64,000 bases of DNA, taken from contig NZ_SZZW01000002.1 in the NCBI RefSeq assembly GCF_009829915.1, forward strand, positions 62,001 to 126,000. Reading direction: 5' to 3'. This DNA comes from Pantoea sp. Nvir (GTDB lineage Bacteria > Pseudomonadota > Gammaproteobacteria > Enterobacterales > Enterobacteriaceae). The position numbers and the translations under genes were made by a program. The notes beneath the pieces are model-generated. The model saw only the letters and a program-made list of their open reading frames with translations. It was not told the DNA's origin and did not search any database. Shown here piece by piece: positions 31,178 through 50,341 of the stretch. The first letter of the stretch is position 1. Every line of letters begins with the position of its first letter.

Positions 31178-32173
31178 TTAATCATTGCCTTTTTCACATC
31201 CTGTGTTTGTTTTTTCATATAGCTGATGATAGTACTGAGCGATAAAAGAACAGACCATTAACTGAATTTGATGGAAAATCATCAGCGGTAGTAAAACAAT
31301 TCCGACTACGTTGGCCGGAAACAAAATGTTTGCTAGCGGCACACCGTTCGCTAAGCTTTTTTTTGATCCACAAAAAAGCACGACAATCTCGTCAGCACGG
31401 CCAAATCCTAAAAAGCGAGAAACGCAAATATTAATTGCTAATACCATAGCGAGTAATATAAAACAGCCTGCTACAATCCATAGCAGTGTGTTAGTGCTAA
31501 CTTGATGCCAGATACCATTGGCCACTGCTTCGCTGAAGACAGAGTAAACCACTAGTAGAATTGACATCTGGTCAATTCTACTAATTAGACTGTGATTTTT
31601 CTCTACCCATATGGCAATCCAGCGACGAGCAAGGTGACCTATTAAAAAAGGCACTAGCAGTTGAAGCAAAATTTTACCGAATTGTTCAAATACATTGATA
31701 GACATACTATTGTGCATGTCCATTACAATATTCACTAAAAGTGGGGAAATAAAGATACTTAGCAAACTGGATGCAGAGGCGCTACAGACCGCTGCCGCTA
31801 CGTTGCCACCTGCCAAAGAGGTAAAAGCAATGGCAGACTGTACGGTTGCAGGCAAAATACATAGGTAGATAAACCCAGCATAAATCTCAGCACTGATATT
31901 TACCGGATGCCACCAGACAAGTAACAGCCCCAAAATCGGGAAAAGTAAAAAGGTACTCAACATAATCCACAAATGGAGACGCCAATGACTACTGCCCGCG
32001 ATGATTTTTTCGTATGATAATTTCGCGCCGTGCATGAAAAAAAGTAGAGCAATAGCAGCTATAGTGAGGTATTCAAAAATGTTAACAACAATACCTTTTG
32101 CAGGTAAAAATGTAGCCAGCACAATAACACTAACAAGCTTAACCACCATCGGATCGAATCTTATAAATCTCAT
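31178..32173 (-). CDS. yfeH: Bile acid:sodium symporter family protein YfeH
   Basis: 331 aa against 332 in E. coli YfeH, a member of the SBF/BASS family with about nine to ten membrane segments and unknown substrate. Family motifs such as LLFFMHGAKLSYEKI, ILPATVQSAIAFTSLAGGN and FCGSKKSLANGVPLANILFP are intact. It lies convergent with ligA, as in E. coli. That a transporter without known role survives this much gene loss suggests it matters to the symbiosis, but this is inference. Confidence 0.88.
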   Translation of the reverse strand: MRFIRFDPMVVKLVSVIVLATFLPAKGIVVNIFEYLTIAAIALLFFMHGAKLSYEKIIAGSSHWRLHLWIMLSTFLLFPILGLLLVWWHPVNISAEIYAGFIYLCILPATVQSAIAFTSLAGGNVAAAVCSASASSLLSIFISPLLVNIVMDMHNSMSINVFEQFGKILLQLLVPFLIGHLARRWIAIWVEKNHSLISRIDQMSILLVVYSVFSEAVANGIWHQVSTNTLLWIVAGCFILLAMVLAINICVSRFLGFGRADEIVVLFCGSKKSLANGVPLANILFPANVVGIVLLPLMIFHQIQLMVCSFIAQYYHQLYEKTNTGCEKGND

Positions 32174-32501
32174 TCTAATATCCGTTTAAAATAAAATTAT
32201 GAGATTATTTGAACCTATTTTTTTAGTTAAGTCAAAGAGACTATACTGATATCTGCTTCACCTTAATTAAAGGTGAAGTATTCATGATTACAGCTATGCA
32301 TTTACCTTCCTCAATCCGTTTTTTCCTATTCCTGTTATGTATAACTGGAACAGTTAGTTGGTTTCAAGCTACTGCATTTTTGATTCTGATAATGTATACA
32401 TTGATATCTAAGCTTATTTCTTACAATTAGCTGATGAAATTCTGTCGTTTTGCATACTAAAAAAGTATTCAGTACGAACGTAATTAAGTATCTTAATCTA
32501 G
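32174..32501. other. Spacer yfeH-tRNA-Lys
   Basis: Contains a 9-bp perfect hairpin (32256-32278) that may end the tRNA transcript, and probably the yfeH promoter. No gene seen. Confidence 0.5.
32256..32278. repeat. Perfect 9-bp inverted repeat between yfeH and tRNA-Lys
   Basis: CTTCACCTT and AAGGTGAAG around AATTA. There is no T-run. It lies about 220 bases downstream of tRNA-Lys in the minus direction. Confidence 0.7.
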
Positions 32502-32574
32502 TGGGTCGTGCAGGATTCGAACCTGCGACCAATTGATTAAAAGTCAACTGCTCTACCAACTGAGCTAACGACCC
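32502..32574 (-). tRNA. tRNA-Lys (TTT)
   Basis: 73 bases, essentially identical to E. coli tRNA-Lys with anticodon TTT. The discriminator is A, but the following bases are CTA instead of CCA, so the 3' CCA is not encoded. It follows tRNA-Val in one apparent transcript. Confidence 0.97.
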
Positions 32575-32631
32575 AAACTGGTGGGCTATTCTGTTACTAA
32601 CCGCGGAACATTTTAATTATTAAGATGTTTG

Positions 32632-32704
32632 TGGGTGATGACGGTCTCGAACCGCCGACCCCCTCCTTGTAAGGGAGATGCTCTACCAACTGAGCTAATC
32701 ACCC
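32632..32704 (-). tRNA. tRNA-Val (TAC)
   Basis: 73 bases matching E. coli tRNA-Val with anticodon TAC. All stems pair, with one added G-T pair in the anticodon stem. CCA is not encoded (CAA follows the discriminator A). First gene of the tRNA-Val/tRNA-Lys pair, as in the E. coli valU-lysV operon. Confidence 0.97.
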
Positions 32705-32722: not shown

Positions 32723-32750
32723 ATTATAGAGATAATATAAAGGGAGTCAA
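32723..32750 (-). promoter_or_regulatory. Sigma-70 promoter of the tRNA-Val/tRNA-Lys unit
   Basis: On the minus strand TTGACT (32750-32745), a 16-base spacer, then TATAAT (32728-32723), about 19 bases before tRNA-Val. Both hexamers are at or near consensus. Confidence 0.8.
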
Positions 32751-32785: not shown

Positions 32786-32833
32786 ATTCAGTAACACTAG
32801 CATCTTGGATGAAAGATGCTAGTGTTACTGAAT
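32786..32833. repeat. Perfect 21-bp inverted repeat
   Basis: Left arm 32786-32806 begins ATTCAGTAACACTAG and the exact complement spans 32813-32833, around the loop GGATGA. It shares its last bases with the next inverted repeat. On the minus strand the stem is followed by a short T-run (TTTTAT). Confidence 0.95.
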
Positions 32834-32865
32834 AAACGTGCGGCTTCAAGCCGCACGTTTATTCA
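32829..32865. repeat. Perfect 18-bp palindrome adjoining the 21-bp inverted repeat
   Basis: Arms at 32829-32846 (TGAATAAACGTGCGGCTT) and 32848-32865, exact complements around one central base, so a folded RNA would have a 16-bp stem and TTCAA loop. Its core is GC-rich (CGTGCGGC). It lies between the tRNA promoter and gltX. Confidence 0.95.
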
Positions 32866-32978
32866 AATGTGGATGCGTAATATTGAATATAATATGTACA
32901 CTGTTTTTTCGTCCAGCCCGTTTTTCATTACTTAGATAGATAATACTTGCATAAAAAAATATATTAAGGCACTGCTGA

Positions 32979-34397
32979 ATGAAAATTAAAACTCGCTTCG
33001 CACCCAGCCCTACGGGCTATTTGCATGTTGGCGGTGCACGTACCGCGTTGTATTCTTGGCTCTATGCGCGCCATAAACAAGGCACATTTGTTCTGCGTAT
33101 CGAAGATACTGATCCGGAACGTTCTACGTCGGAGGCCATTGAAGCAATTATGGATGGCATGAATTGGCTCAATCTAGACTGGGACGAGGGTCCATACTAT
33201 CAATCTAAACGTTTAGAACGCTACAATTCAGTCATTGAGACAATGCTAGATGTAGGTACTGCTTATAGGTGTTACTGTTCTAAACAGCGTTTGGAAAATT
33301 TGCGTGCAACTCAAATGGCCAAAGGTGAAAAACCGCGCTACGACGGGAATTGTCACGATAGCCATGCGCATCATACAACAGATGAGCCTCATGTAGTACG
33401 CTTTCGTAATCCGTGTAAAGGCTCAGTCATCTTTAATGATCAGATCCGTGGTTCGATTGAGTTCAGTAATCAAGAGTTAGATGATCTTATTATTCGTCGG
33501 ACTGATGGTTCGCCGACTTATAACTTTTGCGTTATCGTTGACGACTGGGATATGGGTATCACCCATGTTATTCGTGGTGAAGATCATATTAACAACACGC
33601 CGCGCCAGATTAATCTCCTTAAGGCGATTGGTGCACAGGTGATACCGGTCTACGCGCACGTTCCGATGATTTTAGCAGACGATGGGAAAAAGCTATCCAA
33701 ACGTCATGGAGCGGTGGGCATCATGCAATATCGCGACGAAGGCTACCTTCCGGAAGCATTACTTAATTATTTGGTACGTCTGGGGTGGTCCCATGGTAAT
33801 CAGGAGATTTTCTCAATTCTAGATATGAAGAATTTGTTTACTTTAGACGCCGTTAACAAGTCTGCTAGTACCTTTAATACTGAAAAATTACTATGGTTGA
33901 ATCATCACTATATTAACAACCTGCCGTCAAAATATGTAGCGACTCATCTGCAATGGCATATTAAACAGCAAAATATCGACACACATACTGGACCGGAATT
34001 GGCAAAATTAGTTAAGTTGTTAGGAAAACGCTGCAAGACTTTGAAAGAAATGGCTTATTCTTCTCGTTATTTTTATGAAGAGTTTAATGAATACGATGCA
34101 GATGCGTCGAAAAAACACTTGCGTCCGATTTCGCGTAAGTCACTGGAATTAGTGCGTGACAAGTTAGCCACCCTTATCAGCTGGACAGCGGAAAATATTC
34201 ATTATGTGATTCAAAGCACGGCGGATGAGCTAAATGTTGGGATTGGCAAAGTCGGAATGCCTTTGCGCGTTGCTGTCACTGGCACGGGTAAGTCTCCTGG
34301 ATTGGATGTTACCATCGAAGTAATCGGGCGTAGTCGAAGTGTGGCACGCATTGATAAAGCTCTGGCATTTATCGCTAAGGGTGAAACGCACGTCTAA
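32979..34397 (+). CDS. gltX: Glutamyl-tRNA synthetase GltX
   Basis: 472 aa against 471 in E. coli. Class I synthetase charging tRNA-Glu. The HIGH-type motif [10 protein letters not shown] is at 9-18, the KMSKS-type motif is KLSKRHG (near 237), and the zinc-binding region around CYCSKQRL and CHDSH is kept. A TATAAT at 32888-32893 may be its -10 box, though no clear -35 is found. It is divergent from the tRNA-Val/Lys unit, as in E. coli. Confidence 0.97.
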
Positions 34398-50303: not shown

Positions 50304-50341
50304 GTTATCTAATAGTCTCTATAAATAGACTATTAGATAAC
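50304..50341. repeat. Perfect 15-bp inverted repeat
   Basis: GTTATCTAATAGTCT and its exact complement AGACTATTAGATAAC around an 8-base loop CTATAAAT. It has no T-run. It lies where the body of usg has been lost. Confidence 0.9.

Follow-up and report, generated by a model that had tools for sequence, protein, structure and literature searches.

Quasi-palindrome mutations, in which an imperfect inverted repeat becomes perfect with one arm serving as the template for the other, offer the closest described parallel to the locus analyzed here (PMC6357072, PMC7202029). In an Escherichia coli reporter such mutations perfect palindromes via template switching, recB mutants show them at a high rate and RecA is dispensable; according to a title cited in the same source, template switching is aborted by Exonuclease I (PMC6357072, in the portions drawn on here). 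These are single laboratory reporter events, whereas we describe many natural long repeats with mosaic arms in a decaying genome. The mitochondria of Nematomorpha likewise display many long perfect repeats in working protein genes, with overlapping repeats and a proposed origin by template switching, but their arms reach 284 bp, against 25 bp in our sample from a bacterium (PMC6649704, in part). Multi-base changes that perfect stems are also known from yeast coding genes, where template switching homogenizes inverted-repeat arms (PMC8604942, in part), and from the creation of RNA stems by template switching (PMC8794818, in part); these concern eukaryotic or RNA genes, unlike the genome-wide bacterial spectrum considered here. 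Inverted-repeat-rich bacterial genomes are more often those of endosymbionts (28 of the top 200), according to the accessible part of a survey that counts short repeats, apparently with no adjustment for base composition (PMC10434271), to which we add a perfect-versus-imperfect and an ancestral comparison. Intrinsic terminators and REP/BIME elements are hairpins in spacers too; the present repeats differ from them in where they lie, in being single-copy with perfect arms, in leaving the spacer length unchanged and in occurring in genes as well. Our searches of the openly licensed literature turned up no bacterial symbiont for which such a regime has been described. The kind of event is thus already known, and what is of interest is its density in a bacterial symbiont, the mosaic arms and the reach into conserved genes.

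Within the window, i.e., the whole 64,000-nucleotide stretch of Pantoea DNA that was analyzed, no perfect inverted repeats (loop up to 20) are longer than I1 and I2, whose arms are 100% complementary in both cases (Table 1). They bear out the original prediction of a perfect 21-bp stem abutting an 18-bp perfect palindrome with about five shared bases (TGAAT), placed in a divergent promoter region rather than after a gene, with tRNA-Val on the minus and gltX on the plus strand; of its span, 32786-32866, the repeats are real but the pair ends one base earlier, at 32865. As single-stranded DNA, the segment 32780-32872 forms two stems with a folding energy of -36.5 kcal/mol, whereas shuffled versions average -7.1 (z -13.5) and 0 of 200 match it. 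A chance origin is excluded by Markov copies of the window and by a drift simulation: ten first-order copies never had arms longer than 11 bp, with a rough expectation for arms of at least 18 bp of 3e-5 per 64 kb, and simulated AT-biased drift (600 kb, three runs), which ignores codon constraint, gave 0-1.1 per Mb for arms of at least 14 bp.

Table 1. Features of the window bearing on the twin repeats and on similar repeats (positions as in the window)
Feature	Positions	Strand	Remarks
I1, perfect inverted repeat	32786..32833	.	arms 32786-32806 / 32813-32833 (21 bp), loop 32807-32812 (6 nt)
I2, perfect inverted repeat	32829..32865	.	arms 32829-32846 / 32848-32865 (18 bp), 1-nt centre 32847
TGAAT	32829..32833	.	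common to I1 right arm and I2 left arm
tRNA-Lys (ttt)	32501..32574	-	
tRNA-Val (tac), valU	32631..32704	-	
valU promoter-like site	32723..32750	-	TTGACT-16-TATAAT, 11 of 12; intact, repeats do not reach it
TTCAAA, putative -35 of gltX	32862..32867	+	at I2 end; aligned to the -35-like TTGAGG of relatives
TATAAT, putative -10 of gltX	32888..32893	+	20 nt after TTCAAA; TAGAAT in most relatives; assigned from the alignment
gltX	32979..34397	+	472 aa, intact
13-bp-arm perfect repeat	31553..31583	.	in intact 331-aa transporter-like gene (31178-32173, minus)
15-bp-arm perfect repeat	50304..50341	.	outside any ORF of at least 80 aa

The genome carrying these repeats (1,425,354 bases in 11 contigs; G+C of our sample 0.40) falls within the genus of its Pantoea relatives, which permits a comparison of the tRNA-gltX spacer. 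This is 274 bp long in the window and 267-284 bp in the 27 same-genus loci with a recognized tRNA, the other two of the 29 loci stopping at a contig edge. Against an alignment of five near relatives, the left and right arms of I1 are identical at 12/21 and 13/21 positions, the remainder of the left arm and the right arm of I2 at 10/14 and 11/18, and the two flanks at 59/81 and 62/113; about a dozen bases have been lost at the I2 centre, depending on the alignment. A shuffle placement test supports both arms of I2 (p 0.05 and 0.04); for I1 it supports the right arm (p 0.02), whereas the left arm does not rise above shuffles (p 0.29). Since the spacer length is unchanged and the ancestral spacer can be aligned with the arms roughly as well as with the flanks, the palindromes are not an insertion but were built from resident sequence. 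The compact twin hairpins recall REP/BIME pairs at first sight, yet we consider an inserted mobile palindromic element (REP, MITE or similar) highly improbable: besides the preserved length and the alignable arms, the locus is single-copy in its genome, and REP/BIME or MITE are refuted on these grounds. A search of the own genome with a 261-base query, covering the check for further copies of either arm that had been proposed from the sequence, returned only the site itself and its own inverted self-matches.

Across 109 relative loci (92 distinct spacers), searched with a loop of up to 12, perfect arms reach at most 10 bp, arms of 8-10 bp occur in four, and none retains the repeats. The comparison with sister lineages envisaged by the original prediction was thus run, but the nearest relative in a genus-wide search that matched 60 of 61 genomes has only 73% DNA identity in the spacer, so no close sister is usable to date or order the events. 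The spacer had been described as visibly decayed, a fair reading given an identity to the five-relative consensus of 0.73 to the left and 0.55 to the right of the repeats versus 1.00 at the tRNA end and 0.93 at the gltX start.

The promoters of gltX and valU have been mapped in E. coli, and I1 and I2 lie between the putative valU -35 and the putative gltX -10. In 108 of the 109 relative loci, TTGAGGA is followed by TAGAAT or TAAAAT (TARAAT) at the gltX-promoter spacing; TTGAGG is absent from the window, and a scan of the plus strand from the repeats to gltX recovers only a weak 9-of-12 site (32937-32965). As the end of I2 coincides with the ancestral -35-like hexamer, the event that formed I2 probably altered the gltX promoter as well. 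In the same region (32501-32704), the tRNA cluster upstream of gltX is reduced to one Val and one Lys tRNA, against three Val tRNAs in 24 of the 27 same-genus loci.

This position between two promoters, with both adjoining genes intact, could also point to selection for the hairpins as part of the gltX/valU promoter region, acting as a terminator pair against stray transcripts or as a regulator site. The minus strand of I1 indeed passes as a terminator-like stem with a TTTTATATTG tail (2 such sites found, 0.3 expected); I2 does not show the terminator pattern, and the site is upstream of both genes. A terminator, however, needs no perfection to the last base. Moreover, comparable repeats occur in none of the 109 relative loci, in which the genes are arranged alike, an operator would be expected to be conserved and no arm exceeds 10 bp, and like perfect repeats are also found inside protein genes. 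We hence regard a selected element as unlikely; the regulator, cruciform and terminator readings offered from the sequence stay conjectural, with the T-rich run after I1 on the minus strand being a weak point in favor of the last.

To place the twin repeats in a wider setting, we counted perfect repeats in a sample of the own genome (G000) of 291,834 bases including the window, of which 4,420 were masked; the sample was picked by contig position and covers 20% of the genome (223 kb, or 16%, outside the window). The comparison set comprised G014 (taken as the type-B symbiont of Plautia stali) and G071 (taken as Candidatus Pantoea persica), and 600 kb from five unreduced Pantoea genomes of 4.3-5.2 Mb each, namely G004 (taken as Pantoea sp. 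SOD02), G007 (taken as Pantoea septica), G018, G027 and G029 (taken as Candidatus Pantoea deserta). Terminator-like repeats were filtered out of the counts by a filter that classes I1 itself as terminator-like. Perfect non-terminator 16-bp arms number 9 in 287 kb of the own genome, whereas the 600 kb from the unreduced ones contain 0. Because the window was picked for its repeats, counts were redone without it and still give 8 in 223 kb (36 per Mb) versus 0 in 600 kb (p 3e-5). With arms of at least 14 bp and a loop of up to 20, there are 13 in G000 and 9 in 320 kb of G014, against 3 in 600 kb of the unreduced genomes (p 9e-5 and 0.005, respectively) and 0 in 120 kb of G071; the own genome without the window retains 11 (p 9e-5).

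The excess lies with the perfect repeats (Fisher p 2.5e-4). Among 16-bp arms with 0, 1, 2 and 3 mismatches, the densities per Mb are 36, 13, 40 and 170 in G000 without the window, 9, 28, 31 and 125 in G014, and 0, 7, 25 and 133 in the five unreduced genomes, with the two- and three-mismatch classes near normal. Perfect repeats even outnumber one-mismatch repeats in G000 without the window (8 to 3), unlike what neutral decay would leave. Nor do they constitute a repeat family, as for 18 repeats the sample contained a single partial, AT-rich match. With 25-bp arms and a 9-nt loop, the longest perfect repeat sampled lies at L144:15773-15831 on a 42-kb contig, outside ORFs of at least 80 aa. Since similar perfect repeats turn up in many parts of the genome, intact genes among them, a general mutational process is indicated, and the choice originally posed between selection and very recent origin at the gltX site was too narrow.

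Repeats of this kind occur in intact frames of the transporter-like gene of the window (presumably BASS/YfeH, albeit with no NCBIfam match), nuoG, potA and ppk, and with 12-bp arms in prfA, efeB and folC. In the transporter-like gene, GGT AAA ACC GAC (Gly-Lys-Thr-Asp) of the relatives has become AGT AGA ATT GAC, the exact complement of a conserved TCA ATT CTA CTA. In nuoG, a conserved ATG has become GTG, and TCG stands in place of a codon that is GAG or GAA in 11 of 12 relatives and GCC in one. A seemingly broken nuoG with internal stops was also seen in another genome (G005:C4:1774891-1775885). Foldback chimaeras arising in the library or the assembly deserve mention, the genome being a single draft assembly; we rate such an artefact as very unlikely, since the coding repeats preserve the reading frames and the conserved residues around them. 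Furthermore, if the genome is that of the published SoNv (1.425 Mb, 40.6% G+C, 11 contigs), which belongs to Pantoea and lives in symbiosis with the stink bug Nezara viridula, it was obtained from tissue DNA without amplification, with Nextera libraries and 2x300 MiSeq reads whose length suffices to cover the 80 bp (PMC8032781, in the sections drawn on here).

Orthologues were available for four of the seven coding repeats attempted (folC, prfA and efeB were left out, with none in the fetched loci, and none was found for a fifth, short-ORF repeat in L144 either), and in all four the symbiont has a perfect repeat where its relatives have an imperfect one. The ancestral arms are complementary at 35 of 58 positions and those of the symbiont at 58 of 58. 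At the 23 discordant ancestral positions, the base of the symbiont is that of the left arm in 10 cases, that of the right arm in 10 and neither in 3, and both arms have changed together at 4 of the 35 concordant ones. The gltX I1 repeat gives a comparable picture: its consensus arms, a weak quasi-palindrome, agree at 7 of 21 positions (5 kept, 2 changed in both arms), and of the 14 discordant positions 4 follow the left arm, 7 the right and 3 neither. One-way copying of one arm, as in a single rewriting event, finds no support in these mosaic arms, although the placement test for I1 leans toward it. A mosaic is no proof of switching, as independent substitutions also give mosaics; only the rate argues against drift.

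The mosaic arms, the two-sided changes and an intact MutS would equally suit mismatch repair within a cruciform or hairpin, i.e., intra-palindrome gene conversion in lieu of polymerase template switching. Stems of 13-25 bp are poor at cruciform extrusion in duplex DNA, which speaks against the cruciform form of this explanation. Template switching is, in addition, the mechanism that has been tested in E. coli (PMC6357072, as far as the consulted portions go), and we deem such mismatch repair improbable, if somewhat less so than an artefact.

Accordingly, we favor an in-place mutational origin of I1 and I2 by quasi-palindrome correction, with a probability of roughly 0.7, and the template-switch type of origin that had been mentioned as an example is the best fit. 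The correction step is probably replication template switching acting in both directions, the latter because the arms are mosaics: one switch rewrites one arm only, so a mosaic needs several events or another process that reconciles the arms. In such a process, the growing strand would fold back at replication on a nearby imperfect inverted repeat and copy the opposite arm, rendering the arms exactly complementary. Leading- and lagging-strand events would correct opposite arms, and their repetition may leave each arm a patchwork drawn from the two ancestral ones. The middle segment, i.e., the I1 right arm and the I2 left arm, would have been used in both repeats, which would explain the shared TGAAT.

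SbcCD and ExoVII are nucleases that destroy folded-back DNA, and ExoVII limits quasi-palindrome mutations in E. coli. SbcC is found in all five unreduced genomes; G000 and G071 have no match to it, and the one in G014 is weak and below the cut-off. G000 lacks XseA and G014 has it broken, against an intact XseA in G071 and the five unreduced genomes; within the genus, the excess thus tracks the loss of XseA and not that of SbcC alone. The xseA place of G000, set by orthologues of the genes flanking xseA in G027, is a spacer of about 1 kb (L154:7187-8226) with a perfect repeat of 17-bp arms, beside a gene that we take from gene order to be guaB-like. ExoI, RecB and MutS are present in the own genome, with MutS intact. 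In E. coli, ExoI and RecB keep events of this type in check, and their presence here counts against quasi-palindrome correction; loss of RecB, MutS or ExoI is rejected as a cause. In G007 (G007:C25), RecB is divided between two frames, which may reflect a pseudogene or an error in sequencing.

Beyond the genus, the picture is mixed. An XseA match is lacking in 13 of 394 genomes of a sample of the order, G000 among them, and we sampled five of the other twelve, with 27-100 kb per genome outside the genus. Two XseA-negative genomes have repeats, 8 in 100 kb of G102 and 6 in 100 kb of G121 (19% G+C; the simulation gives 0.7), whereas G204, G360 and G339 have no non-terminator arms of at least 14 bp in 27, 40 and 63 kb. 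G039, positive for both XseA and SbcC, has 3 in 100 kb, and the XseA-positive G043 and G056 have 1 and 0. This mixed outcome, with genome decay as a confounder, does not favor loss of ExoVII/SbcC as the sole cause, and the loss of SbcC and XseA behind the excess is a plausible conjecture whose link is not clean outside the genus.

Perfect stems are often taken as selected structure; here they seem to be marks of a mutational process, one that seems to alter conserved residues in working proteins too. We tentatively suggest, as a possibility short of even odds, that the loss of SbcCD/ExoVII in early insect-symbiont decay lets quasi-palindromes be perfected and evolve in concert genome-wide, rewriting promoters of the gltX type and conserved residues without selection. 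If the nuclease link is true, reduced genomes would constitute a natural experiment on the policing of palindromes.
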